64,000 bases of DNA from assembly GCA_034620365.1 (NCBI GenBank), contig JAQGEQ010000159.1, positions 1 through 64,000 of the forward strand. Reading direction: 5' to 3'. Positions within the stretch are counted from its first letter, which is position 1. The number at the start of each line of letters is the position of its first letter. Of this stretch, positions 1,395 to 54,706 are shown in pieces. Position numbers and translations under genes: made by a program. The stretch comes from Pegea sp. RAD2-039. Taxonomy: Eukaryota; Chordata; Thaliacea; Salpida; Salpidae. The notes below the pieces were generated by a model that searched no databases, was not told the origin of the DNA, and worked only from the letters and a program-made list of their open reading frames with translations.

Positions 1395-1880
1395 TAGTAG
1401 CAGCTGATTAAATTACTTTAAAGGTTTGTATGATTTTTAAGTTAATTTGAAGATCAAACGAAAATAATCTGTGAGTCTTATAAAAGTCTCATTTTTAAAA
1501 ACAAAAAGTCACATGGCTTTTGATTTAATTTTTGATCGTCAGTACGACTGATTATTTTTAATTTTAATCATCGAAGTAGGATAAATTTAAATCTGAATTA
1601 AATAAAACTTGATCAACAAAATTAAACTAATTTTATTTGTATAATAGTAAACTTATAAAAAAATTTCTTATCAACTTTAAAATCAAATTTTCAATTTGAA
1701 CAATATTTTTCAACCAATTGCTTATCAAGAAAATTATAAAATTAATTTCATTTGAACTTGATCCCATACACTTCAGATTGCAAAAACGTTTATAAGAAAT
1801 GAAAAGTAAAATTAAGCTCAATCTTTCGTAAAGGATTGCAAAGTTTTCAAGTTTTGAGCTAAAGTACTTTACAACAAAGC
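1395..1880 (-). repeat. Arm module (E-D-hairpin), left arm of element I
   Basis: Read on the minus strand this is the arm order: palindrome TAAAGTACTTTA (1860-1871), D box (about 1748-1792, with ACTTGATCCCATACACTTCAG on the plus strand), then E box (about 1508-1545, AGTCACATGGCTTTTGA on the plus strand). It faces inward towards the A1 box at 2381, as left arms do in the complete elements. A 62-codon open frame here is the conserved D-box text and not a gene. Confidence 0.75.
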
Positions 1881-2380
1881 TGTAAATAGCAAATAAGTTT
1901 AATAACTTGAGTTATTAATCATCACAAAATATGTTTGTAAACATGTTATTGGTAAAATGACAGATTTCTTAGTAATTGAAAACTTTTCATTCAAAAGAAA
2001 TTAGTATTTTGCTTTTTATTATCATTTAATCGAAATCATTAAATATCAGCTCAGCAATTCTGTTTTTAATCCAGAAGATAGTTTATTGCATTTGACAAAT
2101 ATCAAAAAGTTTACAAATTTTCTATCATTAGTTAAAATATCAAAGAATATTATTTTGCTTCTAAAATTTTAAATTTTTGCAGTTGATATATCAAATTACA
2201 AAAAGTAAACATAACTTTTATGAATGGAATTATGTGAATTATGAACCTTTTTAAATTATTATAAAACAATATCTAAAATTGTTAGATAATATTTTTTATA
2301 AGCTGAAAGTACTATCAAAAAATTATTAAGATTATAATACAATCGTGTAATTTTCACATGTTTTATTTTTATAAGTAACC

Positions 2381-2400
2381 GTCTAGCGCACAAGTAGCAG
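2381..2400 (-). promoter_or_regulatory. A1 GC-rich box, degenerate
   Basis: GTCTAGCGCACAAGTAGCAG is the reverse complement of the A1 consensus CCGCTACTTGGCGCTAGAC with three changes. It is an island of G+C inside very AT-rich flanks. A function as a protein-binding site is inference. Confidence 0.45.
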
Positions 2401-2867
2401 AAAAGGAAATAGTTGAATTTTTTTGTAGATTTATCTTTTAGTCTTGATTTGTTTACATTTTCTAAAATAATAAAGTTTTTAAAATAGTCACACTTACCAA
2501 CGTACTCTTAATTTCCATTTTATAAAATACTATTTATACTATAAATTTTTGTAAACATGCAGTGTTAATTAAAATCTAGTATTATTTAACAATAAGTAAA
2601 AACAAGAAACTAAATTATTGAGAGATATAAAGAAACAAAATAAATGTTTTGACTGAAGATTAGTTTAATGATAATTAGTTATAAATTAAACTAATAATAT
2701 CATTATAACAACAATATCATCAATAACATTATGGATTGATTAAAGCAATCAAAAATTTACCGACACCAAAAACATAAGATTGAATAAAGATAATATATAA
2801 CCGTATAGATTACGAGAAAACAGTGTTTTAGTATCAAATAATTGATGCGCAATATCTAAATTTGGAC

Positions 2868-2883
2868 GATGTAATTTTGCATC
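2868..2883 (-). repeat. B hairpin, decayed
   Basis: GATGTAATTTTGCATC keeps a 6-bp stem with one G-T wobble. It is preceded by TTTGGA, the complement of the TCCAAA that follows the hairpin in plus-strand copies. Confidence 0.55.
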
Positions 2884-2899
2884 TTGATATCAAATAAAT

Positions 2900-3760
2900 T
2901 TTTCCCTGGAAAAAATAAGGTTTCGTGATGTTTTGAGAATTCGTGACATTTATAAGCTCCTTGTACAAGCGTATTTTGATTTTTCTTAATCTTTATTTTA
3001 TTCATTTAACACAACACTTTTTTAAAAAAAGAGTTTTTTTTGTACAAAATTCATCAATACCTTAAACGAAAGTTGTTTTTCAATTCTTGAAGAAACATAA
3101 AGATTTTGCATTTTCAGAAAAAAAAATCGTATTAATACGAAGTGATGAACATGTTTTAACAATTTGGATAATTTTCTAAATTTACAATTATCACTTGACA
3201 ACTTTACACATTAAAACTAACGATAACTAAGATATTGTAATAATATTTATACACATCATAATAAAAGTATACAGTTATAAATGAGCTGTACCAACTCCTA
3301 TGTTTGTAGTTTCATCAAAGATTACTCATGCTTTATTCAATTGAAAATAAAAGTTCAATGATTATAATTTTTGCTTTAATTGAATATCTAACTGTTCACA
3401 AAATAATTATCTTTATTTCTTTATTTTGAAAAAAAACAGATTTTTTCATTAAAATAAGAGGATTCAATTAAATTAACAAGATATTAATTAACAGTTATAA
3501 GATGAAATAGCTTTATTACATCAAATTCTGAAGTTGTTAAAGTTTATCTGAAGAAAAAAGAAATTTCTAACTTTTGTTTAATGATATACATTTTAACTAA
3601 TAAACCATTCTTTTTTAGAATTAAAAGTAAAAGTAATTTAAAAAACATAGATAATGTATACAGTTTAGAATAAATTGAATTTTCAATGGTTGATTCATTA
3701 AGAAAATCTAAAAATTGTAATTTTTGTTTTGCTTTTTTTTTTGTTTTTCTAATTTCGACT
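2900..3760. other. Intervening AT-rich sequence with one C-box relic
   Basis: No gene is seen. A relic C box (CCTATGTTTGTAGTTTCATC) lies at about 3297-3318 and reads like the one at 14.42 kb. The remaining sequence, including poly-A/T runs near 3.02 and 3.73 kb, is unassigned. Confidence 0.5.
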
Positions 3761-3764
3761 ATTT

Positions 3765-3778
3765 GCGCCATCTAGCGG
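3765..3778 (+). promoter_or_regulatory. A2 box, CTCF-core-like
   Basis: GCGCCATCTAGCGG reads on the other strand as CCGCTAGATGGCGC. That agrees with the published CTCF core CCASYAGRKGGCRS at 13 of 14 positions. The two or three hundred bases on either side have very little G+C, so the site stands out. Binding is not shown; the resemblance to CTCF is established only as a motif match. Confidence 0.5.
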
Positions 3779-3779
3779 A

Positions 3780-5468
3780 TAGAACAATTTTGCTAAAATA
3801 ACTGAAGCTGAAACTTAAATAATCTATTTAGTCAATTGCTTTAAACTAACTTGAGCATTAAAACTAGACCTGCTTTTAAGTAAATAATCTTTAAAAAGTG
3901 GGTTGATCACCAGAATGTTTCATAATCTGAAGTTAGGAAAAAGTATTTGAGTAAATATTTTTCTTACGACTTGTTTACAGTAGATTTAAAAGATATTTCG
4001 CAAGGCGAACAATTAGGGTTAATCTAATATAAAAAACTTACTTTTAGGACTGGTGTAATTTTAATTACGTAATTTTTTTTTAACTTTTTTTTATAATTTA
4101 TAAATTCTGTATAAAAATGGATATTTATAATTTTAGTCAATTGTCTCAAATGCATAATAGTATGAAAATAATGTCTCATAAAAGGTTTTCTAAGCTTTTA
4201 TTTAGATAAAACCAGATAAAAAAAATACAAAATTTAATACATAATATTTAAAAACCAAAATAAACTTTCTGCATGGTTTTCTTTTTTTTCAATTCTAAAA
4301 TATAAATAGAAATATTAACTTTTATAAAAATTTAATTGTATCTTTTCAACATATAACTATTTGAAAAAAAAAACTTAATCGAAATTGTTTATTGTTGATA
4401 TAGATGTATATTGAAATAAATATTTTTCTAGAAATTTTAGTTTTTATATCTTATATTTGTTTCAAGAAATTTTTGTTTTAAAATATTATTCGATATTTGT
4501 AGTTAGGGATTATGATCACTTTAAAATTTTTTTTTCTAGTTACTATTTAAATTATGATAAGAGAATCACAATCTAATAGATCTCTTTTTGCTGCTGCACC
4601 TGAAATCTCCATAAGAAGTTTTTTTACTTTTATGTATCTCCTATATCTACTTCAAAGTGCTGTATGAACTTCAAAAAGAATTCTAGTCTTAAAGTTTGGT
4701 TTATATATTGAAAATAATTTGTTTAAATATATTTCGGTTTTAATGTTTAAATCAACTTAAATAAAATACTTATTTAACAGATTGATTTTTAAAACATTTA
4801 ATTGAGAATAAATAATGTTTTAATCAAATTTTTAAAAATAATTTTATTAGTATGTCTTGATTACTTAAAATAGTTTTGTAATTCATATTACTTCGTATAT
4901 TCATTAGTATATTTCATATTACATTAATTTTAACTTTTTGCAAATTGAATTGTCAACTTTAAAAAGTTAGAATTTTTACAATCGAGAAACGAAACAATAT
5001 TTTTGATTTTTTATCTGATGAAAGAATATTTGTAACTTTCTTGAAATTAGTCAGCTGTGTTTAGCTTTCCAGAGGATTAAAAATAGAATTGTCGAAATGA
5101 TATTTAATGATTTCATGATATAAAAAATACGGATATTTGTTAATGTTTTTTGTTTTCCTAATTTGAATTCTAAATAGAAATACAAAACATTTAATTTCTA
5201 GGAAACTTAAAATTTTTAAATAAAACCGAGATTTTTCTACTTTTCATTTCTCATATGTTTAATGCAATTTAGTGTTTGTAGGATTAAATTTAAAAGCATT
5301 ATTTTTTTGTTATTTTAAGTAAAAACCTTTTGTTGACAAATAATTCACTTTTTATCAAGTGTTAAAAAATTTTCATTTTGTAAGCATTCTGTAACAATAT
5401 TTACAATATGTTTATAACATCGGAATAAATTTTTCACCTAATTTATTTTTATCTTATCATTTGCATAA
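3780..5468. other. Unassigned AT-rich stretch
   Basis: I see no gene, no confident repeat box and no RNA gene. A slightly more GC-rich patch at about 4560-4700 (containing CTGCTGCACCTGAAATCTCC) has no match elsewhere in the window that I could find. Confidence 0.4.
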
Positions 5469-5660
5469 ACCGGAAGCTTAAATTACTGAACTTATTTACT
5501 AATCGATTATTTTCGTTGAAAAGTATTTCAACTCAAAAATAGTTCATCCAGATGGAGCTATGCAAACACTAATTTTTTTTTCATATTTCCTTATTTATTT
5601 CTTTGTCGTAATCTACAGTTTGTGGCATCAGTTTAAAACGAAAAATTTATTTTAGCTTTA
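5469..5660 (+). repeat. Arm module (hairpin-D), solo
   Basis: The perfect hairpin GTTGAAAAGTATTTCAAC lies at 5515-5532. About 80 bp later comes a D box (ATCTACAGTTTGTGGCATCAG, about 5610-5630). No E box or facing arm is evident nearby, so this is a solo or very old arm. Confidence 0.65.
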
Positions 5661-6665
5661 ATTATAACTTATTGTTGATAAAAATACATTTAAAGTAAAT
5701 TTTTAAAAGTTATAAGAAATTGTAAAGTTACTTTTAATTTAATTCAAAAGAATATTAAATGATTGTAACTGGATAATATGAAAAGTTTATAAAAATTTGT
5801 ATTACGTTAATTTTAAAATTACTTTTAATTTGTGTTAAACACGAAATAGGATTTTTTGGCTTTGGATAAAGATGTTGATAAATTAAATATTGGAGAGATG
5901 TGAGTTTTTGGTTCAAAAATTATGAAAAATAAAAGACTAAAAAATAAAATCTAATGCTCAATTGTTTATTCAGAAAACCTCTGTATTTTGACACACAGAT
6001 TTTTCAATCTTCTAAATATTTCTGTGTTTTGAACTTTATATACTATGTTCTTATGATTTTACTTAAGTTGTTTACGTTGTTTTACAATAAAACACAACTA
6101 TATCAGTTTGTTGAAGTTTTCTTTAATATCTTTTATTTTGTAAAGTTAGACTTTATAGTTTACAGTTAAGCAATGTTCTACATTTTTCTCAAAAGTGTAC
6201 AATAAAAATCTCAACTTTTGGATAACTTTGTAGGATATTAAAAAATAATTCAGATCTGTTCTGCATTAATTTATTCTTCAATTTTTAATAATTATTTTTG
6301 TATTAAAAATACTAATTATATATAATAATCAGATATGCACTAGTAAAATTTAAGGTAAAATTTTACATATTGATTAACTCAACAAATTTGGTTAAATAAA
6401 TATTTTTTTATAATGATTTCAAATGAAACAAAATTGAAAGTATATAAACATTCTAAGAATAAATAAAGCCTTGTAAGAACTTTGTTTCAACATGTTTTTA
6501 ACCTCATATTTTATATACAATATGAAATATATATATTTTTTCCTTCAAATTTTCTCTGTCATACTTTTCAAATAAATAAAACTAAATTTTTTACTTAAGA
6601 TAAAAAATTACTAATATATTATTAAGTTTTCGTTTTGCTAATTTTCAGATTATACAAAAATACAG
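5661..6665. other. Unassigned AT-rich stretch
   Basis: No repeat box is recognised with confidence. A 71-codon open frame at 5954-6169 (plus) is rich in Phe, Leu and Tyr, lacks a ribosome-binding or splice context I can point to, and has no counterpart in other repeat copies. I do not call it a gene. Confidence 0.35.
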
Positions 6666-6889
6666 TTTGGCCTTTGATGTGGCTCATAATTGTTTGTACA
6701 GTTTTATAACATCAATTATTTTAAGGGATAGTTATTAAACATTTTTATTAAACCTTTTATGTTCATAATTTTGTAAAAATTTATAAAAAAATTAATTTAC
6801 AAAATAATTGTCTTAAATTACATTTTACTAAACAATTTTACAAAAGTAGATGAATTAAAATTTCAACTTTTGAAAGAAGATATTTTGGA

Positions 6890-6906
6890 ATCGACTAAAT
6901 GTCGAT
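6890..6906. repeat. L hairpin
   Basis: ATCGAC-TAAAT-GTCGAT is a perfect 6-bp stem. The stem is unchanged at 20,740-20,756 (loop TGAAT) and 47,739-47,755. An isolated 5-bp version is at 11,339-11,353 (loop ACTTA). Confidence 0.65.
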
Positions 6907-7221
6907 GGCACCAGTTACTAATTTTAAATATCTAAATATTAATGCTGTTCAAGTTTCCAAGACAACAGCTTTGATAAGTTTTCTGAAATAAATAATTTGT
7001 TTTATACTTTGATGTGGTATGTTGTTTAATACAAATATTTATTTTATTGCATGTACAAAACTGTTTTCACTTTTTGGTGACATTTTTGAGTTCATATCTA
7101 CAAATTCGAAGTTGCTCGTGAATAAGTAACTTGATTATTGTGAATAGTTTAGATATTTACTAAAACATGTATATTTTCTATTTTCTAATCAAAAAATTAT
7201 AATTTTATCTTTTTACTCTTT

Positions 7222-7238
7222 GCGCCACCTAGCGGTTA
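7222..7238 (+). promoter_or_regulatory. A2 box, best CTCF-core-like match
   Basis: GCGCCACCTAGCGGTTA is the complement of CCGCTAGGTGGCGC plus flank. It differs from CCASYAGRKGGCRS only at the third position (G for A). It lies at the end of the L repeat, and diverged equivalents lie at 21,056, 36,988 and 47,422. Confidence 0.55.
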
Positions 7239-7414
7239 TCGTATTTTAGTTACAACAACAAATCTTTGCAAATTAATAATTATTTATTGAACCACTTTAA
7301 CAAAATGTACAGTTTGTAGATTGGTGGATGTTTTTTCCAACAAAGCAAATTAATAGTCTTTTCATTTTTATAGTTAAAGAATAATTGAATAAACTTTTTT
7401 TGTAAAATTTTTTA

Positions 7415-7700
7415 AAACAGAGTTAAATCGTTAAAAATGAAATTTCAAATTAGCTTATTATTTCAAATAACATCAGTATCAATCTAAAATTTAATTTCCA
7501 TAATAAACATAATTTCTAATGTTAGCTGAGAATTTGCTTTATTAAAAGTAAAAGAATTTACCATGTTTTAGTATTACATGCAGTAATTTTGTGCACCGAT
7601 TACATTGTACTTTCTTAACAAATATTAAACTCGTTTAGATTTCTAGCACCACAAACAACAGACTTAAAGTATTGTATTATATTCCGATTTTATTCTCTTA
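7415..7700 (+). repeat. M repeat, copy 1
   Basis: It begins AGTTAAATCGTTAAAAAT and contains ATGCAGTAATTTTGT, ACACCGATTACATTGTAC-type text and TTAGATTTCTAGCACCA. The same series occurs at 27,185-27,560, and its first part at 37,190-37,300. A related end (CATTTCTAGGACAACAACCAACAGAC pattern) is in the G repeats. Confidence 0.65.
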
Positions 7701-8369
7701 GAAATATCCTGTATCCATAAGCGGGAGTGTATATTACTTATAATTTAGAAACTGCAAATAGCAGTTGACAAATTTCAAAATAAACTTGATGATTAGTTGA
7801 ACAATTGCTGTTAATCGAATTGTTATTTCATTTAGAAAATATAATTTCAAAGTTATATAAAAGGAGCTTATTAATAACCAAATTGTAAAGCTAATTATTA
7901 AAACATTTTTGTTATCTAAACATTTTATTTTAGGGCCCTTACTTATTTTTTTATGAGTTAAAATTATTATTGAAATTGTATATGAAACTAAGAAAATTTA
8001 CTCAACATAAAAAACATATACCAAGCTTACTTTGTTTTTAATGAAAAACAACAACACATATATTTAAAATAAGTTATATTGTCTTTTTTTGAATTCACAA
8101 AATCTTAATTTGAGTATAGAGGCCTCATAATTGACATCATTATGATTTGAATAAGTTATACAACTGTTGAAACAAATTTTAAGAAAAAAACGTGTTCATA
8201 GTTATTTTAAAAATATCTTCATATTTTTTTATTTTTACAGTAGGTTTTTTTCAGTAGATCACAAGCAATTTGTTTATACCAGAAGAAGTAGTAAAAATTA
8301 AATCAAACTTTTTTTATTTGAAAGTTTAATATCATTGAGCAAATTTGTAATTAACTTTTACAGCAACCT
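7701..8369. other. Unassigned AT-rich stretch with one hairpin
   Basis: No gene is seen. A 6-bp hairpin CATAAT-TGACATC-ATTATG lies at 8125-8143, beside text like that at the start of the L repeats (CATAATTG). It may be a relic of that family. Confidence 0.4.
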
Positions 8370-8720
8370 TCATTGGCTAAATAACATAATTCTATTTGTT
8401 GATTATAAGATTGCTTCAACTTTATTTCGTTTAATAATTACAGAAACAAATTATATAGTATTATATACTTGTAATTAGTAGTTTATTATTTATAAATATT
8501 TTATTTGCTGCTTAGTTTTCTACTTTAACTAGAATTCTGATTAGCAATACTTATTTTACTCAAAGAAAAGTAGTTATTCGTAATTATCAAATGCAATTAT
8601 ATTAATAGGTTTACAACAATACAGATTTTGTATGTCAATATTTGTGTAGAATGAAAACTCAAGATATTCAATTTACTTAATAAATGAAGTTTTGTTTATA
8701 GGTAACTTAACTTTAAATTT
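8370..8720 (+). repeat. N repeat, copy 1
   Basis: This matches 37,310-37,680: AAATAACATAATTCTA, GCTTAGTTTTCTA, GAACTAGAATTCTGA-type text, GTTATTCGTAATTAT and AACTCAAGATATTCAA. In both places it leads directly into an arm module. Confidence 0.65.
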
Positions 8721-8860
8721 ATAATCAGCTAAAAACCTTAAATGCTGATTGAAATATTCTTTACTTTTAATTTCTTTTCAGTTTGTTGCAATCTAGAGTT
8801 TTTGAATCAAGTTTAGGAGAATATTTTCTTATAATTTTTTTGAAAAAACTTTTGTTGACA
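8721..8860 (+). repeat. Decayed arm module with D box
   Basis: A D box reads GTTGCAATCTAGAGTTTTTG at about 8785-8804, followed by AATCAAGTTTAGGA. The arm hairpin expected about 90 bp upstream is lost, unlike in the sister N copy at 37,651-37,668. Confidence 0.5.
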
Positions 8861-9425
8861 AAAAAATTTCATTTTTTTTAAAAAAATTTTGTCTACAAAA
8901 ATAACTAATAAAAAAGAAATAAAAAATAAAAAATTTGCTTTAAAATTTAATTGTTTTTTCTGTCAGAAATCTAAGTAAAAACAAAAAAATTTTAAAACAA
9001 AAAGTTTTTCTTTGCCAAAGAGTTTCTTAATGGTTCTCAATAGTTGAACACCTTTTCGACGTCAACAATATTTATCAACTTTTGTTTGATAAAGTTAATA
9101 AGATATTCTTTACAAGTTTCAGAAGATTTAAAGTTATGTCCTTTTGTTGAAAATTGAAATATTTTACTTGTAGTAATCTGTTTGTCTTGTTTTCATTAAG
9201 TTGTATATGCTTTAGTTAGAAAAGGCGTTTTCATACAAATATCTCCTTTTTTAAAAAGACTAAAAATGGAACTTAATTCACAAAAAAAAAACTTTTTGTT
9301 GCTAAATTACTCTTGAAAGCAATCCTCGAAAATTGCAATAAATAACAGAATTATAATATAACAGAATGTTTTCAAATATAAAAACTTTTATTTTACAAAA
9401 TTAGTATTTCTACGTATATTTCAGA
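8861..9425. other. Unassigned AT-rich stretch
   Basis: Long A/T runs and no recognisable box. No open frame or RNA gene is supported. Confidence 0.4.
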
Positions 9426-9429
9426 TGAA

Positions 9430-9510
9430 ATAATTTAAGCAGCACTATTTCTATTTCTTTATTACTTTTTAATATCATTCAATCGAAATCATTAAACATC
9501 GGGTCAATAA
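9430..9510 (-). repeat. F box, isolated
   Basis: The text ATCATTCAATCGAAATCATT followed by AAACATCGGGTC matches the F box, which elsewhere reads GAATTGCCGAGCTGATATTT and ATGATTTCGATTAAATGATA on the other strand. In complete elements F lies between A1 and the right arm. Confidence 0.5.
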
Positions 9511-9634
9511 AACTATTTTAAGATTAAATAAAGATTTTTTTTGACATGAAACTATTATAGATAGATATAAAAATTATAACAAATGAATCAACCATTTAAT
9601 CATTTGGTTAACTGTTTAATAAAAGATCTCATAT

Positions 9635-9650
9635 AGCGCCCACTAGCGGG
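9635..9650 (+). promoter_or_regulatory. A box, CTCF-core-like
   Basis: AGCGCCCACTAGCGGG reads CCGCTAGTGGGCGC on the minus strand. That fits CCASYAGRKGGCRS except at two positions. The homologous box at 28,906 is GCGCTAAGTAGCGT, a near-perfect palindrome, so the box is variable. Confidence 0.4.
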
Positions 9651-10075
9651 AAATGAAAGTTTTGAATTATTGTTTTGTAAAGTTATTTGTTAAAACTTAT
9701 TCCTACTAAACTATCCAAAGAAGAAAGTTTCTAATTATCCGGATTGAACAACATATTTAAAACTTCTATATTAAAAATACTAATTTCGCTAAAACTTTTT
9801 TACTATTTGTAAACATTCTTTCAAATTATCAGTTTCACGATTCCGCCAAAATAATAAATATTCAACTTAAATCATTTTTATGTTGCTACTTGCAGAGAAT
9901 TGAAATCCAAAGTAGTCTTGTTATTTACTTAATCGATTTCTGTTGAAAGTATTTCAACTTCAAATTATGTCATAGATTCGATCTGCACAATGATCTAAGA
10001 ACTCCAAGAAATTTTCGGTTATATCAACTTGGTTACAATCTAGAGTTTGTGGGCTCAAGTTTAAACGAATTGGTT
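9635..10075 (+). repeat. P repeat, copy 1: A box to D box unit
   Basis: This aligns with 28,905-29,335. In order it has an A box (9635-9650), TAATTATCCGGATTGAA-type text, TTTGTAAACATTC, TTTTATGTTGCTAC, AAAGTAGTCTTG, the arm hairpin GTTGAAAGTATTTCAAC (9942-9958) and a D box (about 10,031-10,072, TCTAGAGTTTGTGGGCTCAAG). It links the A box directly to an arm. Confidence 0.7.
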
Positions 10076-10344
10076 AATTTTTATTCCGTATTTTTTATGT
10101 TAAACTCTTTTTTGACAAAAAAAAAGTAAAAGATAATATTTATTATTTGGTAATATCTATTAGTCTATTTAGTTTAAATATTTAATTCTGAAGTTGGGTT
10201 GACTATAAAGGTACTATTTTAGAACTATGATTCAATGTCTTTCTGATCTTGATATTATTAAGTACTTCCATGAAAAAGTTTTAGTTATGTCAAATCTACA
10301 AAAATCAAAGTATTTATGTTACTGATACTTCATTTTAAACTGAG
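10076..10344. other. Short unassigned linker
   Basis: This follows a D box and contains TTAGTCTATTTAGTTTAA and GTTGGGTTGACTATAAAG. Similar text occurs after the D box at about 15.43 kb (GTGTTGACTATAAATC), so it is probably part of that D-box subfamily. Confidence 0.4.
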
Positions 10345-10545
10345 TCAAGATTATTAGAACAATAATATTTTCAATAACATTATCAATTGATTAAATTACA
10401 CCAAAAACTTAGCGATACCACAAACATAAGATTGTACGCAAATAATATATAACACTTTAGAATATCGATGCTTTTTTTCCCGAGCCCAATTTTTCTTAAT
10501 ATATTTTGAAAAGTGCACTTTTGCATCTAATTATCAAATATTGTT
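10345..10545 (-). repeat. B-C module, minus orientation
   Basis: On the plus strand it reads AATAACATTATCAATTGATT, then GCGATACCACAAACATAAGA (C box), then about 80 bp on a B hairpin relic AGTGCACTTTTGCATCT (10,512-10,528). The order is the reverse complement of the module at 40.02-40.20 kb. Confidence 0.7.
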
Positions 10546-11338
10546 TTTTCATAAAAAATCAAACGCAAAACTCAACAATTTTGAACAAAGGTAGAAAAAC
10601 TTGATATAGTTATTTAAATAAAATGTTATTATTAATTTGGTTTAATATTTGCTTCTTATGTTTGCACTTAGAAAACAGGAAACTAGTTTAGAACCAAGTT
10701 TGATTATGATGAAGTTCATTTGAGGTAGCGACTTTTCTCTCTAATTAAATTCAAAGACTAGGTGATGATGTGAAAAGCACAACAATTGTAAACAAATTTA
10801 AGTAGAAAAATATACCCAAAAGGTTATAAACTTACTCAGCATCAACAAAACAAAATACGACTTGAATTTTTACAAAATATTTGAAAAAATGATTAAATGG
10901 TTTAACTATAATAAAACAACCTTTTACCAAGACACTTAGAAAAACTTTCAGTAAAAGTTTAAAAATCTCAAATTTATTTAACATATTTTACAATATTAAA
11001 CAACTTGCTTAATTTTATTGTTATACAGATAGAATGCTAGGAGTTTTTAAAATATATCTTGACTAGTTAAATGTAGATAAAAATAAAGGTTATTATTTTC
11101 GATAATCACAATAATAAGTAAAATAAATTAAAGACGATGTTTTATTCACAGATACATTTAATTGATTAAATCAAATAATTTTGCTGTGTATAATAATGAG
11201 GTTTTGGCTTGATAGAATTACACTTTCATATCACTAAAGTAAACGATTATTAAAAAACGAAACAGAATCTAGTAAAAGTTAATTTACGAATTACAGACTA
11301 CCATGATTACAAATACTTTAATATTAGTGAAGGTTATA
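10546..11338. other. Unassigned AT-rich stretch
   Basis: No gene or firm repeat box is seen. The small hairpin TCGAC-ACTTA-GTCGA at 11,339-11,353 just beyond is the isolated relative of the L hairpin. Confidence 0.4.
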
Positions 11339-11394
11339 TCGACACTTAGTCGACTTAATGAAATAACTCAAGTTATTAATCTTATTTATTATTT

Positions 11395-44553: not shown

Positions 44554-44559
44554 ACATAA

Positions 44560-44820
44560 AACAACTACCATCATAATAATATTTAGTAGCAAATTTTTAG
44601 TCTTTTAAGTAAAGAAATATTCTATAGAACAATTTTGTGATTTACAAAATTAAAATAACTGATGAAAATAAGATATTCTTAAACAATTATACATAACTTG
44701 AAGTAGTAATAACTTTCAATAGGTTATGGTTTAGTAACTAAACGCAAAAGTAATATTAAGATTGAAATATTTTTTTTAAGTTTGCTAGTATAAATAATAT
44801 AAATTGTATATAATATTCGA
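44560..44820. other. Linker like 36.49-36.65 kb, A box lost
   Basis: AAACGCAAAAGTAATATTAAGATTGAAATA matches text that precedes the decayed A box at 36.65 kb in two short blocks. Where that box would be, the sequence reads GTTTGCTAGTATAAA. Confidence 0.4.
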
Positions 44821-45030
44821 GCTAATGTTTACTAAAATAAACATGAACTGTTAAAGAATATTTTTTTATAGTCAAAAGCAAATGTAATTTTAATAATATA
44901 AATAGCATAAACAGCTTAAATTAAATCTTTAAAATGGTTAAAAATTCATTAACTATAAGTTTTTGCTTTTATCGTTTGCATTCTCTAGCAAATAAAATAT
45001 CTTTGCTTAGAACAAATATCTAATACTTTA
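44821..45030 (-). repeat. J segment, partial, minus
   Basis: TATAATATTCGAGCTAATGT, CTGTTAAAGAATA and TTTTTGCTTTTATCGTTTGC are the reversed J anchors. The palindrome half is missing. Confidence 0.6.
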
Positions 45031-45043
45031 GTAGCTGATGGAT

Positions 45044-45097
45044 AAATTATTTGTATGATTTGTAAATTATTTTTATGATTTGTAAATTATTTTGAAG
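45044..45097. repeat. 20-bp tandem repeat
   Basis: AAATTATTTGTATGATTTGT, AAATTATTTTTATGATTTGT and a partial third unit. It falls exactly where minus arms carry the single phrase before GAAGATCAAACG. Confidence 0.7.
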
Positions 45098-45510
45098 ATC
45101 AAACGAAAATCATTTCTGAGTTTAAACAAATCTCATTAAAACAAATAGTCAAATGGCTTTTGATTTATATTTTCATCTTCAGAACGATTGATCACTTATA
45201 ATTTTAGTCATCGAAGTAGAAATAAATTTAAATCTAAATCAAATAAAACTTGATAAGAAAAATTAAACTAATTTGGTTTGTATAATAGTAAACATACAAT
45301 AAATTTTCTTATCAACTTTCAAATCAAATTTTTAATTGGAAAAATATTAGTCAACAAATTGCTTATCAATAAAATAATATAATTAGTTTCATTTGAACTT
45401 GATCCCATACACTTCAGATTGCAACAACGTTTATTAGAAGTGAAAAGTAAAATAAAACTCAATCTTTCTTACAGGATTGCAAAGTTTTTATATTTGAAGT
45501 TAAAGTACCT
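45090..45510 (-). repeat. Arm module, minus
   Basis: E (AGTCAAATGGCTTTTGA, near 45,148), D (GAACTTGATCCCATACACTT, about 45,396-45,415) and a damaged palindrome (TTAAAGTACCTTACAAC, near 45,500). Confidence 0.7.
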
Positions 45511-45514
45511 TACA

Positions 45515-46262
45515 ACAAAACTAAATGAAATTATTTTTTTCGTCACTTCTTCTATACAATAGAAACTCAAGTTAATTAATCTCTTTACTAATAGAATTTC
45601 CGTTGAACAAAATTTTAACTCCAAATTATGTTTTTAATAACCATTGATATTTTGTTAAAGTTTTCGTAATTTTTTATTATTTATCACTTTGTCTAATCTA
45701 GAGTTTGTTGGGTCAAGTTTAAACGAATTTATTTTCATAATTTTAATATTAATTTTTGTTAATAAACAATGTATTTTTGTAAACGTTTTTATAAAACATT
45801 TTATATCAAATATATGTTTACTCACTAAAAAAATTAAAAGTAAAATCTGTTTAGTAAAAACTTCTTTTTTTTAATATAAATTTAATTATTCGTTTTTTAA
45901 AAAAAATAAAATTTTCTATCTCGTTTGCATTTCTAGTACAACAACCAACAGACTTATTCATTTTTACATATTCTATTTTTCATTAAATCAAAGCTAATTT
46001 ACAATTAAAGGACAATCAATCCATATTCGTAAAATATTACACTTGAAACCCTTGTTAGTTTAAACTAACTTCTTGATAAAAATTTGTAATTTTCTTTTAA
46101 TTGTAAACTTCAGTAAAACAGGTTTTATGAAATTTCATTTTAGAATATAAAAGAAATTGTTAAAAAATTCTTTCTTAATGGATGTTAGTCAGCAATCAAT
46201 AACTATAAAAGCTTTCTTAAAAATTTTATAAATCAATTTTTGTTTACAGATTTATTTATATT
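45515..46262 (+). repeat. G repeat, copy 4
   Basis: It lacks the GATATTAGTGATGCC start but has the arm hairpin relic (45,602-45,619), D box (CTAGAGTTTGTTGGGTCAAG, about 45,697-45,716) and ACAACCAACAGACTTATTCA. It continues to TTAGTCAGCAATCAATAACT, matching copy 3 to about 60,285. A 61-codon frame is just D-box text. Confidence 0.75.
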
Positions 46263-47389
46263 TTGACAAATAGCAATAAATTTGAAAGTTGCTTATTTTC
46301 GGTAGAGATTTGTGGAATATTATACAAATAAAATTAGTTTAATTTTTCTTATCAAGTTTTATTTAATTAAGATTTAAAGTTATTCCTACTTTGATAATTA
46401 AAATTACAAACCATCAGTCGTGCTGATGATGAGAAATTAATTCAAAAGTCATGTGACTTTTTTTTTAATTGAGAGTACTATAAGACTCAGAGATTATATT
46501 CGTTTGATCTTCAAAATGAATTTCAAACTTAGAAATCATACAAATCATTAAAGTAATTTATCCAGAGAATATCAAAGTATTAGATATTTATTATTAGCCA
46601 AGATATTCTATTTTCTAGAGAACGTAAACGATAGAAGCAAAAAGTTAAAATTAATGGGTTTTTAACTAATTTTAAAGATTTAATTTAAACTGCATACACT
46701 ATTCTTATTATCAAAGTTACATTTGGATTTAACTATAGAAAAATATATTCTTTAACAGTTAAAATTGATTTTAGTAAACATTAGGTCAAATATTATATAT
46801 ACAATTTATATTTGTTAAATTTGTGTTTACAGTTGCTGTATTACGATTTATTTAACTACGATTAATCGTTTACACTAAACTAGGAGCTTTTGTATTCCTC
46901 AGAGTTAATTTACAACTTTAACAAAGTTCATGATATTCAGTGGCGAAATAAATGTAGATTATTTGATGATGAGATTTAACTAAATTTTATTTTAAATAAA
47001 ATACAATCTGTGTATTTCTTACTTATGAAAAATACTTAGTTGATAAACAGATGGAAAAGAGCATCTTCCAAATATTGCATTTATAAATACTGGATTTGGT
47101 ATTTCACTGAAAAAGGAATTTTTAAATGTTATTTATAAGCTGCATATAACCTTATGTGTGTGGTTTCATCGAAAATTATTTATACTTTAATCATTTAAAA
47201 TGAAATTCAAAAAAGTATTTACAAAAATATTTTTAAAAATGTGGAAAAATATTTATAAAAAAAAAGTGAAATAAATTCTTTTTTAACAATAAAAATGAAA
47301 AAATATTAATTTGCTTTGTTGCAAAAAACATCCACCAATCTACAAATTGTACAATTCATTAAAATGGTTTAATAAAATACTAATTTAGT

Positions 47390-47990
47390 TTCAAATATTT
47401 GTCGTTGTAACCAAAATACGCTAACCGCTAGGTAACGCAATGAGAAAATAGAAAAAAAAATTAATTTTTTATTAGGAAATTAATAATAAAGATTTTTTGG
47501 TAACTCTCTAAGCTTATTTATTTTGAAGCAACTTTGATTTTGTTGATATGAATTCAAAAATGTCACCAAATAGTGAAAACAGCTTTTGTACATGCAATAG
47601 AATAAATAATTATATTAAATAACATACCACATCAAATTAAGAAACAAATTATTCATTTCAGAAAACATATCAAATCTGTTGTCTCGGAGACGTGATATGC
47701 ATTAATATTTAGATATTTAAAAAATTGTAAAAGTTGTCATCGACATTTAGTCGATTCAAAATTACCTTTTTTCAAAAGTTAAAATTTTATTTTATTAATT
47801 TGTAAAAATTTGTTTAAGAAAATATTTTTTAAAACAATTTATTTTTTAAAATACTATAAATTTAAATTCGTAAAAAGTATGAACATAACAGTTATAGCAA
47901 CATTCTTTTAAAAGTACTACCAAACTTTCTTTTAAAATATTTGATGTTATGAATCTGTACAAACAATTATGACATCAGTTATGAAGTCTT
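47390..47990 (-). repeat. L repeat, copy 3
   Basis: Minus-strand copy with the A2 box at its left end (AACCGCTAGGTAACGCA, 47,423-47,439) and the L hairpin (47,739-47,755), stem unchanged. Confidence 0.75.
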
Positions 47991-50260
47991 TTTTTTTAAT
48001 TAAATTGATTAAATGCAAAAAGATTGAGAATCTTAAGATCAAATTTTCAATTTGAACAATATTTGTCAGGAAAACGCTTATCAAGAAAATTTTTAATTTA
48101 TTTTCATTTGAGCTTGATCCCATACACTTCAGATGGCAACAACGTTTATAAGAAATGAAAAGTAAAATAAAACTCAATCTTTCGTAAAGGATTGCAAAGC
48201 TGTTTAATTTGTAGTTAAAGTACTTTACAATGAAACTTTAAATAATAAATAAGTTTAATAACTTTTGTTTTTATTTAATACAAAATATTTTTGTAAAAAT
48301 GTTATTGGTAATATGACAGATTTTTTACTAATTGAAAACTTTTCATTCAACAAAATTAGTATATTTCTTTTTTTTATCATTTAATCGAAATCATTAAATA
48401 TCAGCTCGGCAATTCTTTTTTTATTTCTATCTTGAGATGAAATATCAATTATTATTATTTTGTTTCTTAAGTTTAAAAAGTTGTAACTTTTTGCTCTTGA
48501 TATATCAATTTACAAAAAGTAAAAATGACTTTTATGAATGGAAACTACCAATTACCAACCTTTTCTTGATTCTTAAAAAGACGTAAATATTTAAAATTGT
48601 CAGAATATATTTTCTGTAAACTTAAAGTAATACCACAAAAATTTTTTAAATAATAAAAAATTATTAAAAATTTTTTTTAAAGTGCTTTTTGACAAAAAAA
48701 AACCGTCTTGCGCCAAGTAGCGGAAAAAGAAACAGTTGATTTGTTTTTTGTAGATTTATCTTGTAGTTCTTACTTGTTTACATTTTCTAAAACAATACAG
48801 TTTTTAAATAACCACACTGACCAATGTACTACTTATTTTAAATTTTTTAAATACTATTTACACAATAACACATTCAGTTTAAATTAAAATTCAATATTAT
48901 TTAACGATAATTATAACTAACAAAATTATTCATTGAGAGGAATAAAGAAATAACAAAAAACCGTTTAGATAGAAGTTAAGCTAAAAATGATATTATCAAT
49001 AACATTATCGACTGAATAAAGTGATCAAAAATTTACTGATACCACAAATATAAGATTGAATGAAGATAATATAATACTGTAAAGCTCACGGGGAAGTTGA
49101 GACGTTTATTCACTTGTTCTCCGTCTACCAATTTATTTGGAAGATGCACGTTTGCATCTGATTATCAAATATTGTAATTTTCTTTTAATTATTTTTTTGA
49201 TTGCTTGATGTTTACATCTTCTTTGTAGAAGTGTAATTTAAATATTCAAATATTTTTAGTTTTTCAGATATGAAATAAAAATGGTTCATAACTTATTTTG
49301 TAAGGTTCGCACAACAACAAATATTTAATCCTTCAATAGTCTTCTGTTAAAATATTTTACAGATTGTTATAATTTGTAGAATGGTTCATGTTTACTTTTT
49401 CAGGTTACTTTTCACCAAAAACTTGAAATACTTTTATCTAAATTCTTCAAAGCATTAGAATAAGGGCTATAGAACGCTAAATGATTCCTTGTAAGATCAG
49501 CAATTAAAAATGATAATCTAATTTAAAGTTTTAGTTTTTCCTCAAAGTTCTTATTTCGAAATAAAAATATTTTTCATTAAATTATGAACTATAAGATAAC
49601 TGTCAATATTTATAATTTAAAAGAAATTGATAGTTGATATTAGTACAAAATTTACTATTTTAAATTAGTTGGTTAAAATTAAATAATTAAAAAGTTTACA
49701 ATTTTATAAACGGATAATACTATTTGATATTTCATCTAATGAACAAAAATTTTCAAATTTCTTGATATTTGTCGATTGATTTGAACTTTTCAAAAAATTG
49801 AAAAAGGATTTGTCGAACTGATACTGATTGATTTCCGTTAAATAATATAAAACAAAAAATATATATATTTTGCTGAATAATTTTATTTTTTAATCTAAAG
49901 TAGAAGTAGAAATACTAATTTTGTTGAAAAAAAAGTTTTGTATTTCTAAACATTCTAGCACGTTGTCAGTAACCATGTTTACAAGAGCTTTGAAATATTT
50001 TTGTTCTTTGTTGTAGAGCTCAAGTTATTCTACTTAATTATAATTTCATTGAAAAGTAATTCAACTCCAAATACCAAAATTTTATTAACACGTTTATAGT
50101 GTCTAGTTTTAGTGTACTTTTCATTATTTATAAATTTTCTGAAAGCTAGTATTTGTGGGATCAAGTTCAAACGATTAAATTTTTCTAGTTTCAATAATAA
50201 ACTTCTTGTTGACTAATAATGCTGAAATATAAAAAATCGATTTTTAAGTTGATAAGGAAA
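47991..50260 (-). mobile_element. Foldback-like element V, complete, minus
   Basis: D (about 48,105-48,140), palindrome (48,216-48,227), F (about 48,390-48,415), A1 (48,703-48,723), C (about 49,030-49,060), perfect B hairpin (49,142-49,159), the second-arm hairpin (50,048-50,065) and D (about 50,148-50,175, TATTTGTGGGATCAAGTTC). It is the mirror copy of element II within the large inverted repeat. Open frames of 76 and 74 codons here mirror those at 20.3 and 18 kb and are repeat text. Confidence 0.65.
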
Positions 50261-50964
50261 ATTATAAAAATATAAACACAAACAAAAAAAGAAAATAATA
50301 AACAAAATTATTTCAAAGATAATAAAAAAAAATAATAATAATAAGAAGAAGTTGATAAATTTTTAAAGATTAATTTTAATAATATATATTTTAAAATCTC
50401 AAAGATCCAAGTATTTTTAGGAAATCTGAAAATTTTTGTCTTTTTGTAATATAAAAACTTGATATAAATTATATATAAAAGTACATCTTTCATATTATGA
50501 ACCAGAAATTGGTGAAATATTTTCCAGGTCATAACTATCTATGGTTATAAAAAAGCAATAAATTACCTAAAGTCGCAATTTCTTCAAATAATAACTATAC
50601 TTCACTTTATTGTTATTGTTGTTGAAAATACTATTTTTCTAATGTTATTATTGGTTCAATTTACTTCACAGTATAAGTTAATTGGAAATTCTGGTTTTTT
50701 CATTTCAACAAAAATTGAAATTTTTCAATGGAATTAAAAAAGAAGTAATATAAAAAACTATTACATTGTAATTATAAAAACCACAATTTATATTTGTATT
50801 TATATTTTTATGTTTAATTTAAATGTTTATTACGATGGAATAAGTTTCTCTCAAATTATCAAAACTTCTCAATAACATAAAATCTAAAATTTATAAATAA
50901 TATTTTTGCTTGATTTTGTTATTTGATTTAAATCAACTGAATATTTATTTAATTAATATTTATT

Positions 50965-51208
50965 AATTAAAATTATAAAAAAATGATTAAAAAAATTTTT
51001 TAAAGTGCTTTTTGACAAAAAAAAAAACGTCTAGCGCCAAGTAGCGGAAAAAGAAACAGTTGATTTGTTTTTTGTAGATTTATCTTGTAGTTCTTACTTG
51101 TTTTCATTTTCTAAAACAATACAGTTTTTAAATAACCACACTGACCAATGTACTACTTATTTTAAATTTTTAAAATACTATTTACACAATAACACATTCA
51201 GTTTAAAT
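50965..51208 (-). repeat. Extra fragment of an element core with A1
   Basis: About 240 bp, again the reverse complement of about 19.63-19.87 kb, directly follows the inverted arm. It includes the A1 box CGTCTAGCGCCAAGTAGCGG (51,028-51,047). It ends at 51,208, where duplication 3 copy b begins abruptly. Confidence 0.8.
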
Positions 51209-54200
51209 TAATGATTAATTTTCATGTTTACTTTTCAAAAAAACTTTTCTGAAACTATTTCCAGAAATATTTTGAAGATTAAACCAACAGTATTTCTAAG
51301 ACTTATAATACTCACAATTTAAAAACAAAAAAAAGATCACATGACTGTTGACTTAGTTTTTTAAAAACCTCAACCTGTTAGAATCGCAACAAATAAATTT
51401 CTGTTGAAACATCAAAGTAACTTTAAATTAAATAAAACTTCGTAACAAACTTACTTTTAATCTATTTTTAATCTTAACCTACTTTTGTTTACTACGAAAA
51501 TAGATTTATAGTCAAGTTTTCTTATCAACTTAAAATCGATTTTTATATTTCAGCATTATCTGTCAACAAGAAGTTTATTATTGAAACTAGAAAATTTTAA
51601 TCGTTTGAACTTGATCCCACAAACACTAGATTTCAGAAAAGTTTATAAATAATAAAAAGTACATTAAAACTTGAAACTATAAGCTTGATAAAACTGTTTC
51701 GAAATTTGGAGTTGAATTAGTTTTCAGCGAAATTAAAATTAAGTAGAATAACTTGAGTTTCTATTCTCTACAACAAATAACAAAAAAGTAATTTAGTTCA
51801 AAGCTTGTAAACATATAGTTACTGACAACGTGATAGAATTTTTAGGAATAAAAAGCTTATATTTCAACAAAATTTGTATACTACTTATATTCTAGATAAA
51901 AAAAAGTAAAATTAATCAGCAAAATATATATTTTTTTGTTTTATATTATTTAACGGAAATCAATCAGTATCAGTTCAACAAATCTCTTTTTAATAATCAT
52001 AAAAGTTCAAATCAATCGACAAATATCAAGAAATTTGAACATTTTTGTTTGTAAGATGAGGAATCATATATTATTTTTTCGTTTACAGAATTGTAAACGT
52101 TTTAATTATTTAAGGTTAATAATCTAATTTAAAAATAGTAAATTTTTTACTAATATCAACTATCAATTTATTTTGAATTATTAACATTGACAGTTATATT
52201 ATAGTTAATAATTTAATGAAAAATATTTTTATTTCGAAATAAGAACTTTGAGGAAAAACTAAAACTTTAAATTAGATTATCATTTTCAATTGCTGATCTT
52301 ACAAGAAACCAACTACTAAAGACCTATAGTCCTTATTCTAATGCTTTGAAGATTTTAGATAAAAGCATTTAAAGTTTTTGGTAAAAAGTAACCTGAAAAA
52401 GTAAACATGAACCAATCTACAAATTATAAAAATCTGTAAAATATTTTAACAGAAGACTATTGAAGGTTTAAATATTTGTTGTTGTGCGAACCTTACAAAA
52501 TAAATTATGAACCATTTTTATTTCATATCTGAAAAACTAAAAATATTTGAAAATTTAAATTACACTTCTACAAAGAAGATGTAAACATCAAGCAATCAAA
52601 AAATTAAGTAAAAGAAAATTACAATATTTGATAATCAGATGCAAAAGTGCATCTTCCAAATAAATAGGTCGATGGAGAATTAGTAACTAAACGTCTTCAC
52701 TTACTCGTTAGCTTTACGGTCTTATATTATCTTCATTCAATCTTATGCTTGTGGTATCGGTAAATTTTTCGATTGCTGTATTCAATCGATAATGTTATTG
52801 ATAATATCATTTTTAGCTGAACTTCTATTTAAACGGTTTTTTTTTATTTCTTTATTCTTCTCAATGAATAATTTTGTTATTTATAATTATGGTTATATAA
52901 TATTGAATTCTAATTTAAACTGAATGTTGTATAGTGTAACTAGTATTTAAAAAATTTAAAATAAATAGTACATTGGTAAGTGTGGTTATTTAAAAACTGT
53001 ATTGTTTTAGAAAATGTAAACAAGTAAGAACTACGAGATAAATCTACAAAAAACAAATCAACTGTTTCTTTTTCCGCTACTTGGCGCTAGACAGTATCTT
53101 ATGAAAAAAATCTTTAAAAATATATTATTTTTTTATAATTTTAATATTTTTTTGGTATTAATTTCAGCTTACAGAAAATATTATCTAACATATTTTAATA
53201 TTTTCATTTTTTATTAATCTAGAAAAGGTTAGTAATTTATATATTTTCCAATCATAAAAGTTATTTTTACTCTTTGTAAATTAATATATCGAAAGAAAAA
53301 ATTCACAACTTTTAAAACTTTAGAAACACAATAATATTTTTTGATATTTCATCTCATGATAGAAAAAACAGAATTGCCGAGCTGATATTTAATGATTTCG
53401 ATTAAATGATAATAAAAAGCAAAATACTAGTTTTGCTGAATGAAAAGTTTTCATTTATTAAAAAATCTGTCATATTTCCAATAACATGTTTACAAAAATA
53501 TTTTGTGATGAATAATAACTCAAGTTATTAAACTTATTTATTATTTACAGTTTCGTTGTAAAGTACTTTAACTAAAAATTTTAAAACTTTGCAATCCTTT
53601 ACGAAAGATTGAGTTTTATTTTACTTTTTATTTCTTATAAACGTTGTTGCAATCTGAAGTGTATGGGATCAAGTTCAAATGAAACTAATTTTATAATTTT
53701 ATTGATAAGCATTTTGTTGAGAAATATTGTTCAAATAGAAAATTTGATTTAAAGTTGATAAGAAAATTTATTTTAAGTTTACTATTATATACACAAAATT
53801 AGTTTAATTTTTCTTATGAAGTTTTATTTATTTCAGATTTAAATTTACTTCTAATTAGAAGACTAAAATTAAAAATGATCAATCGTACTGACGATGAAAA
53901 ATTAAATCAAAAGCTATGTGAATTTTTGTTTTTAAAAATGAGAGTACTGTAGGACTTAGAAATCATTTTCGTTTGATCTTCAAACTAATTTGCAATTCAT
54001 ACAAACTATTAAAGTAATTTATCTAGAGATTATTAATGTTCTAGATATTTCTTCTAAGCCAAGATATTCTATTTGCTAGAGAACGCAAACGATAAAAGCA
54101 AAAAGTTAAAATTAATGTTTTTATCTATTAATGTCATAATTTTATATATATAATATTTTAAGTTATTTTCTTGCTTAATGATCACACAAGAATAAGTTTT

Positions 54201-54706
54201 GAATTATTATTTATTTTCCCAAGATTGAAGTAAACGCTTACAACTTGTAATGTATTCTATTAAACTATTAATGATATTTTGTTTTTGTTTTCTTCACTTT
54301 TATTAGATTTTTATAATTATTACTGCAAGTTTGAATTTGCAGTAAGTTTTAATGTAAAAAGTCGCAAAAGAAACTTTCTGGAAAATCTGAAAAAAAATCT
54401 ATAAAACTAAAAAGACCGTTAGTTTCTCTTTTTGTTTTTAAAATCAAATATAAAATAAACTGTTAAAAAAAGTTAAAATAAATAATTAAATTTCATAAAT
54501 TATTTTTAATAGAAGATAAATTTTTTGACTTCAATGTTTTGAGATAATTTAAAAACTTTTGATAACGATCAATCTATGAAAATACTAAAAAACTTTTTAT
54601 AAAAGTTCTCATCCTCTTTTTTTAAAAAGCCATTCTCTGTTGTTTTCATGATTTTTTTGATCAATTTTTATTTAATTCAGATTTTAATTTATTCTACTTC
54701 GATGAT
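51209..54706 (+). repeat. Segmental duplication 3, copy b, with element VI
   Basis: Near-identical to 38,593-42,090. Element VI: left arm E/D/hairpin (hairpin relic from 51,711), B hairpin (52,637-52,654, perfect), A1 (53,074-53,093), F (about 53,370), palindrome (53,559-53,570), D (about 53,645-53,680) and E (about 53,880). The V repeat with hairpin insertion is at 54,163-54,605. Confidence 0.9.
53074..53093 (+). promoter_or_regulatory. A1 GC-rich box
   Basis: CCGCTACTTGGCGCTAGACA, one base different from the sister box at 40,457. The B hairpin begins 437 bp upstream. Confidence 0.5.

Follow-up and report, generated by a model that had tools for sequence, protein, structure and literature searches.

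RESULTS

Composition and coding potential

The window, by which we mean the whole 64 000-nucleotide stretch of DNA that was analysed, is an AT-rich mosaic (21.5% GC) without any sign of genes. We found no tRNA or tmRNA in it, no Rfam family at gathering score, no long tandem array and no simple satellite. The earlier note had described the repeated units in this DNA as noncoding, and their reading frames are indeed no longer than those of random sequence. The longest stop-to-stop frame had 111 codons, which was also the mean longest frame in 40 random sequences, and 25 frames reached 70 codons or more (random mean 20.8, range 11–34). None of ten frames of 70–111 codons gave a Pfam match over the curated cut-off; one sub-threshold match was seen (PF14205, 18.6 vs 25.5 bits). 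We rejected a coding role with either the standard or the ciliate genetic code, as frame lengths were random-like. Frames of at least 90 codons were viewed on contig C109 (15), on C104 (11) and on one half of C136 (4); the long ones among them appear to derive from LINEs.

Most of the window consists of duplicated blocks (Table 1): 57 522 of its 64 000 bases fell within blocks of at least 1 kb and at least 80% identity, with partners anywhere in 253 kb of C109, C104 and C136. Our full reading covered these 253 kb of a compartment of ~1.95 Mb, together with five short loci. Blocks of the window were copied in direct and in inverted orientation, and both kinds of copy occurred within one contig; inverted matches made up 97 of the 197 HSP records of at least 1.2 kb, each pair being counted from both sides.

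Table 1. Features of the window, with positions counted from its first letter
Feature	Position	Strand	Basis
AT-rich mosaic without sign of genes, mostly duplicated blocks	1..64000		composition, block comparison, frame statistics
Large unit D: right half at ~1377-2790, left arm (class L) at ~5215-5945	1377..5945	-	arm profile, classes
Class H copy of the arm repeat in its ~310-bp core form, lying apart from the short units	8546..8867	+	arm profile, class tree
4.8-kb block, duplicate at 54651-59415 (94%)	13637..18436	+	alignment
4.6-kb block, inverted duplicate at 46318-50965 (94%)	17538..22176	+	alignment
Unit A, copy 1: left arm class B, right arm class A, A1 box and P2 module inside	18242..20462	+	87-95% to other copies end to end; arms z 10.7
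Module that forms the right half (A1 box and P2 with a class A arm), seen again beside four different classes of left arm; left edge approximate	19337..20462	+	genome matches, arm classes
Pair of A1 boxes within a perfect tandem duplication of 62 bp, not part of any unit	27956..28043	+	sequence
Older unit 2, with a class C arm on the left and a class A arm on the right	29317..31782	+	arms z 7.6; class tree
4.1-kb block, duplicate at 51209-55337 (98%)	38593..42716	+	alignment
Unit B, copy 1; homology to unit A across 38898-41137, its inner part	38644..41378	+	alignment; arms z 25.3
Unit A, copy 2, reversed	48032..50263	-	94% to copy 1 including shared flanks, ~4.1 kb; arms z 12.7
Unit B, copy 2; part of the 4.1-kb block duplicated (98%) with 38.6-42.7 kb	51260..53990	+	alignment; arms z 25.0

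Units with inverted arms

The earlier note had listed five copies of a foldback unit, and all five exist approximately where it placed them. Four of them (18242–20462, 38898–41137 and 51514–53754 on the plus strand and 48032–50263 on the minus strand) align end to end at 87–99% identity, and the fifth, at 29.3–31.8 kb, is an older relative that matches the other units at 69–75% over the right part and an arm. The common order of parts that had been proposed is shared by all five, and the order of arm classes in and around the older unit (-D +F -C +A) was found again on C104 and C136. We aligned 700 bp of each left arm with the reverse-complemented right arm and compared the result with 200 dinucleotide shuffles. 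In each of the five full copies the arms matched far above the shuffles (z 7.6 to 25.3, Table 1), so that the claim of inverted arms was borne out. The identity of the two arms within a unit was 59–65%, and 3 to 19 of 200 random 700-bp segments of the window matched one copy's left arm as well as its own right arm did. A partial copy had also been proposed at 1.4–2.9 kb; no inverted arm pair lies inside these limits (z = -1.1), and the stretch is a right half whose left arm is likely to be at ~5.2–5.9 kb.

The A1 box, taken as CAGATGCAANNGTGCATCTTCCAAAT, lies at 19351, 30522, 40020, 49135 (minus strand) and 52636 in the five units. Measured from left edges at 18242, 38898, 51514 and 50263 (the last in minus-strand reading), its distance is 1103–1122 bp in four copies and differs in the fifth, in agreement with the four similar copies and one deviating copy of the earlier note. 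The box also occurs outside the units (13 places in the window at up to three mismatches), and the arms are likewise found outside the five units.

The arm repeat

A profile of the arm gave 157 matches at E<1e-4 in 279 kb (63 on the window's contig, fragments included), while the best E-value in a third-order Markov control of 253 kb was 0.18. Copy number, orientation and tree of the arm were taken from nhmmer and checked by the Markov control; we distrusted plain blastn E-values for such AT-rich DNA, as the Markov control reached E 4e-12 with permissive scoring. The repeat occurs every ~2 kb, with a core of ~310 bp and up to ~1 kb with extensions. Neighbouring copies were oriented at random (-- 27, -+ 30, +- 29 and ++ 27 among 113 core-bearing pairs in three stretches), so they do not form a head-to-tail array of monomers. 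In a tree of the 122 of 157 matches that had enough core, we distinguished 26 clusters at a cut-off of our choice, 19 of them with at least two members; stems were long and crowns short. Outside the ~310-bp core, sequence was common to few classes. Class adjacencies recurred in 72 of 107 cases, compared with a mean of 23.2 and a maximum of 36 in 1000 shuffles.

Near the arm box lies a dyad, GTTGAA-N6-TTCAAC, whose halves GTTGAA and TTCAAC paired in 137 of 147 cells over the consensus sequences of 25 classes, leaving out a 26th that has mainly gaps in this region. We considered a structured arm RNA and rejected it: equally good pairing arose in 333 of 5000 shuffles and a single cell has both of its sides altered, and therefore covariation does not support such an RNA.

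Within 178.5 kb of AT-rich stretches chosen by us, the breakpoints of long blocks (at least 1.2 kb) fell in arms in 34.2% of cases against an expected 26.7% (P 0.0065), which is a modest excess. The larger excess obtained from short HSPs (at least 400 bp, 40.9% vs 26.7%) was discounted, because an arm alone can produce such an HSP.

Flanks, empty sites and arm histories

A genome search found at least 13 full units, of which we examined 11 (those at C286:39895 and C286:52332 were left out). In these 11 copies the flanks travel with the unit: we distinguished two types of flank on each side, three left/right pairings of which occurred (A/A 5, B/B 4 and B/A 2), and no independent insertion was seen among the 11. 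We found no empty site of unit A, as 42 genome matches to its joined flanks (best 40 of 91 candidates) crossed the joint by at most 10 bases. With 131 joined-flank queries made from other units and arms and searched in 279 kb, there were 35 crossings, each extending only 25–40 bases on its shorter side, and four of these were self matches. Visual inspection of the ends of unit A showed no target-site duplication; for unit B an outer edge is undefined, because its arms pass into the repeats that flank them.

The two arms do not evolve as a pair either. Across the left-arm classes of seven units, left arms differed from one another by 0.87–1.10 substitutions per site and right arms by 0.12–0.28, so that the histories of the left and right arms are discordant.

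Distribution in the genome

Among the matches listed, the unit, a second module and two motifs all fell on 12 contigs, which amount to 1.95 of 105.7 Mb. The arm box had 152 genome matches and the A1 box 158 (reversed-pattern controls, 0 for each); the 100 listed of 152 lay on these 12 contigs, as did the 100 listed of 158. Every listed match to three DNA queries was on the same contigs; the best 40 candidates were scored in the DNA searches, and the copy numbers are lower bounds. Thus the listed matches give no sign that the foldback units are dispersed genome-wide. A LINE taken from C104 as a control was found throughout the genome, with at least 39 other copies at 98–100% identity, many of them on the largest contigs. 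Arrays of TTAGGG were seen on C108, C125, C139 and C342 and on none of the 12 compartment contigs (100 listed of 116, in an assembly with few telomeres). The genome looks like that of an animal: its actin and Arp1 resemble animal proteins, and alpha-centractin is the best solved relative of Arp1. Searches for cuticle collagen gave no match, as did their controls, and neither COX1 nor a rotifer spliced-leader motif was matched.

DISCUSSION

A shuffled mosaic as the probable origin of the units

The units probably recur as modules of a repeat mosaic that is specific to the compartment and grows by block duplication, inversion and conversion. Random arm orientation, recurrent class order, duplication in two orientations, shared flanks and discordant arm histories were observed directly, and the units' matches, among those listed, are confined to the 12 contigs. 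The starting point would be an old ~310-bp repeat present every ~2 kb in both orientations and in about 19 repeated classes. Blocks of several kilobases with several arm repeats would then be copied, directly and inverted, to other places in the compartment, and certain pairs of neighbours, including inverted ones that resemble foldbacks, would thereby recur. The abundant inverted repeats may act as partners in this copying, whether by ectopic recombination, break-induced replication or template switching; the compartment itself may be low-recombining heterochromatin of a pericentromeric, supernumerary or sex-limited kind. Two observations count against the mosaic: the inner edges between units A and B are abrupt, with near symmetry of the two arms, as also expected of a transposon, and units of all four left-arm classes have the same orientation relative to the module of A1 box, P2 and right arm.

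Alternative explanations

The earlier note had likened the units to foldback or MITE-type transposons. In this view a non-autonomous family would have moved as a unit, been confined to heterochromatin because it inserts there preferentially or was lost elsewhere, and later been scrambled by duplications. Such a family would account for the inverted arms, the single order in five copies, the sharp A and B edges and the noncoding interior. It is not supported by the shared flanks, the lack of an empty site among the flank matches scored, the low identity between the arms of a unit, the random arm orientation, right arms far younger than left ones or the lack of units outside the 12 contigs among the matches listed, and we regard it as improbable. 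The earlier note had itself named, as an outcome that would speak against a transposon, a unit found solely within one long tandem satellite and without independent insertions; this largely applies, as the unit lies in a larger repeated structure with no independent insertion seen among the copies examined, but we find a mosaic of shuffled blocks there rather than a single tandem satellite. A related possibility, which we consider unlikely, is that the mobile piece was the right-half module of ~1.1 kb, with A1 box, P2 and arm class A, as a transposable element of its own beside older arms; it could be Helitron-like, for example, with the A1 palindrome near one end. This overlaps with the mosaic and does not exclude it. 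One young clade of right arms does stand next to four old left-arm classes, although gene conversion among right arms would yield an identical tree. Four partial genome matches start at query positions 1086–1093, but others start at 998–1190 and at 1408. In the 178.5 kb of chosen AT-rich stretches, 29 of 37 A1 sites had an alignment end no more than 30 bp away, where permutations gave 7.9 on average and 18 at most; however, these sites are not independent, since they lie in copied blocks, and blocks of at least 1.2 kb show no excess within 10 bp (2 of 37 vs 1.9). Moreover, the flanks of the box vary on both sides, and neither an exact common terminus nor a target duplication was found.

The compartment could also be the decayed form of a classical satellite or of a higher-order repeat array, its monomers having been inverted and interrupted, and the arm classes, distant from each other, alike within a class and recurrent in order, do resemble higher-order satellites. 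The random orientation, the lack of a long tandem array in the window and the small number of classes that share sequence beyond the core make this quite unlikely. The recurrent blocks might also be an assembly artefact caused by uncollapsed haplotypes or misjoined repeat contigs, as the repeats, among the matches listed, occur solely on contigs of up to 492 kb and some pairs are 98–99% identical across ~4 kb. Since identities range from the 80% cut to 98–99%, the order of blocks differs from contig to contig and a single contig carries direct as well as inverted copies, we give this very little credence.

Comparison with known systems

Alpha satellite higher-order repeats combine old monomer classes with young copies of multi-class blocks. 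The compartment shares this combination of old classes with young multi-class copies, but its repeats are not head-to-tail, their orientation is random and the sequence between them is common to few classes.

Tetris of Drosophila virilis is described, in the part of the source available, as a transposon with terminal sequence in common with the MITE DAIBAM (PMC4079207). As far as that part goes, the units here resemble these foldback elements in being noncoding-looking, modular and inverted-armed, in having rearranged forms, a presumably heterochromatic setting and arm repeats also outside the element, and differ in that we found no independent insertion, empty site or shared terminus and that their arms are 59–65% alike (PMC4079207). 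The (peri)centromeric macro-dyads of Tribolium are, in the available portion of their description, satellite arrays derived from a ~110-bp element over megabases (PMC13081366). By that portion, both repeat compartments are arranged in large inverted blocks, but the repeat here is dispersed and hardly tandem, with blocks of a few kilobases (PMC13081366). The B-contigs of Brachionus asplanchnoidis, in the section of the report at hand, vary in copy number and contain simple satellites of 143 and 154 bp and raised GC (PMC8447722). On that account, they too are gene-poor repeat contigs distinct from the rest of an AT-rich animal genome; the present DNA differs in its 21.5% GC and in a window free of simple satellite (PMC8447722).

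A possible centromeric role and its implications

The compartment might be a (peri)centromere of a non-tandem kind, built of shuffled inverted blocks, where two short and strongly conserved motifs, the palindromic A1 box and the arm box together with the dyad near it, would be candidate binding sites for a chromosomal protein; we think this rather unlikely. The role of the A1 box and of the arm box with its dyad would then be likened to that of the CENP-B box of alpha satellite. The conservation of the A1 box across contexts is partly built in, because the sites were chosen by that motif. Should the compartment prove to have this role, it would offer a complex animal centromere of non-tandem build that can be read at base level and that carries candidate protein-binding motifs. 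More generally, if the mosaic is the origin of the units, foldback-like structures can arise without transposition: a scattered repeat in random orientation, together with block duplication, would yield inverted pairs of constant architecture.

Noncoding units with inverted arms

The window (bases 1-64000 of the 91.7-kb contig C109; C-numbers denote contigs of the same assembly, 387 in number and 105.7 Mb in total) has a GC content of 21.5%. By its actin and Arp1 genes, the assembly looks animal. No tRNA was found in it, the scan against Rfam gave no match at the gathering score, and its reading frames are no longer than those of random sequence, in agreement with the earlier note, which had called the units noncoding. 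That note had also described five like units in the window. Four of them do align end to end, at 87-99%; the fifth, at 29.3-31.8 kb, is related but older. Inverted arms were detected in all five full copies (z 10.7, 7.6, 25.3, 12.7 and 25.0 against dinucleotide shuffles for copies 1-5, numbered by position) and did not hold for the partial copy at 1.4-2.9 kb (z -1.1). Of 200 segments drawn at random from the window, 3 to 19 matched the left arm of a full copy as well as its own partner did, a first hint against the arms being private partners.

The arms as a dispersed repeat

A Markov control of this composition reached a blastn E-value of 4e-12, which makes plain blastn E-values unsafe here. 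Arm copies were collected by iterated nhmmer profile search (cut-off E<1e-4) in 279 kb, yielding 157 matches; in a control of 253 kb no match was better than E 0.18. Most old arm copies have in common a core of ∼310 positions (model 60-370), outside which few classes are alike. Within it, model positions 221-260 form a short hypervariable stretch between two better-kept parts, with between-class identity of 0.37-0.47 (0.33 is expected at random). The arm dyad GTTGAA-N6-TTCAAC is kept, but covariation support for it was not found. In C109, C104 and half of C136, with low-core matches left out and fragments merged, the 113 neighbour pairs of core-bearing arms were divided evenly among the four orientations (-- 27, -+ 30, +- 29, ++ 27), indicating that inverted pairs are neither rarer nor commoner than other pairs. 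The arms are copies of an old, dispersed repeat. Published work deals with Tetris (PMC4079207), Tribolium macro-dyads (PMC13081366) and rotifer satellite contigs (PMC8447722); at the level of titles and abstract openings, our literature search returned nothing pointing to this arm repeat, a negative of little weight.

Copying of multi-kilobase blocks

An arm tree of 122 of the 157 matches had deep stems and shallow crowns, with 26 clusters at a cutting depth of our own choosing; 19 had at least two members. Certain signed class orders were seen repeatedly (-D +F -C +A; +K -J -B +A; +E -B +A), and 72 of 107 class adjacencies were recurrent, whereas 1000 shuffles averaged 23.2 and never exceeded 36. 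This means that multi-kilobase blocks were copied as wholes. The copied blocks are several kilobases long, up to 11.4 kb, and 97 of the 197 HSP records of ≥1.2 kb, in which every pair enters twice, once from either side, are in inverted orientation. Even with partners sought in 253 kb, 57,522 of the 64,000 window bases lie inside blocks of ≥1 kb and ≥80% identity. At one joint, common to three contigs, the left two thirds of a unit of type A (the type of copies 1 and 4) meet an inverted older right half head-on.

Coordinates of units and other features (window positions are those of C109)
Feature	Location	Remark
Unit A	C109:18242-20462 (+), 48032-50263 (-)	copies 1 and 4
Unit B	C109:38644-41378, 51260-53990	copies 3 and 5
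Older unit	C109:29317-31782	copy 2
62-bp tandem duplication	C109:27938-28061	perfect; carries A1 palindrome twice
(GAT)n-type microsatellite	C109:64353-64858	long; just outside window, near GC rise
Unit A/inverted right-half joint	C104:32022/32027, C267:148191/148196, C287:71341/71346	genome matches
LINE (L018)	C104:3804-6875	open frame of 1024 codons, with endonuclease and reverse transcriptase
Compartment contigs	C64, C98, C104, C109, C136, C261, C267, C273, C274, C275, C286, C287	motif matches

Transposition or a shuffled mosaic

Could the units instead be foldback/MITE transposons, as proposed earlier? The genome holds at least 13 full-length places of the unit (best 40 of 323 candidates scored). 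Flank typing of 11 of them (all except C286:39895 and C286:52332; the C267 copy was read in the opposite orientation) gave two left-flank and two right-flank types, combined as A/A in five copies, B/B in four and B/A in two. The joined flanks of unit A had 42 matches in the genome (best 40 of 91 candidates), none extending more than 10 bases across the joint. With 131 joined-flank queries from arms and units in 279 kb, 35 matches crossed the joint by ≥25 bases, all of them reaching just 25-40 bases past it on the shorter side and four being self matches; as such crossing is expected of inexact edges, we counted none as an empty site, judging from overlap lengths. Had the units multiplied as wholes, the arms on both sides should be equally old. 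In seven units, however, those of different left-arm class were 0.87-1.10 substitutions/site apart in the left arm and 0.12-0.28 in the right, with P2 identity of 77-84%, and the two arms within one unit were 0.71-0.99 apart. Hence the right half (A1 box, P2 and arm class A) either came by copying to lie next to old left arms of four different kinds or owes its continued likeness to conversion. Flanks of few kinds, no counted empty site and discordant arm ages together speak against a simple transposon.

The best explanation is a shuffled repeat mosaic. Blocks were copied in both orientations, with mosaic joints and mixed flanks; the driver would be ectopic recombination, break-induced replication or template switching among the abundant inverted repeats. 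Breakpoints of long blocks fell inside arms more often than expected (34.2% versus 26.7%, 199 breakpoints, P 0.0065; P about 0.02 for blocks ≥2 kb), which hints weakly at such a route.

Alignment ends also lay within 30 bp of 29 of 37 A1 boxes (short palindromes, within and outside the units; mean 7.9, maximum 18 in 500 permutations), although these 29 are not independent events since the sites share a handful of contexts. In the same test, neither the arm box, a short motif in the arm (13/63, mean 14.1), nor the dyad (14/56, mean 12.4) had an excess. For blocks ≥1.2 kb, 12 of 37 A1 boxes had an end within 30 bp (3.4 expected), with no excess within 10 bp (2/37 versus 1.9). The A1 box may be a module edge or a fragile palindrome. 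The two-box spacing of the 62-bp duplication recurs twice on C136.

A compartment of 12 contigs

Genome searches found the arm box (≤3 mismatches) at 152 places (71 and 81 by strand) and the A1 box (≤2 mismatches) at 158 (90 and 68), and reversed-pattern controls gave 0 for both. Among the matches listed (100 of 152 and 100 of 158), 200/200 were on the same 12 contigs, and the matches listed for three DNA queries (best 40 candidates each) agree with this confinement. These contigs total 1.95 Mb (1.8% of the assembly; longest 492 kb), of which 253 kb, plus five loci of ∼5 kb, were fully read. TTAGGG arrays (100 of 116 listed) were on C108, C125, C139 and C342 and none on the 12 contigs. A LINE piece lies on C109 at ∼75.9 kb. 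The LINE on C104, of a young family, has at least 39 other copies at 98-100% (best 40 candidates scored). Many of its copies are on the largest contigs and one is on C275, so the compartment is part of this genome and open to ordinary retrotransposons.
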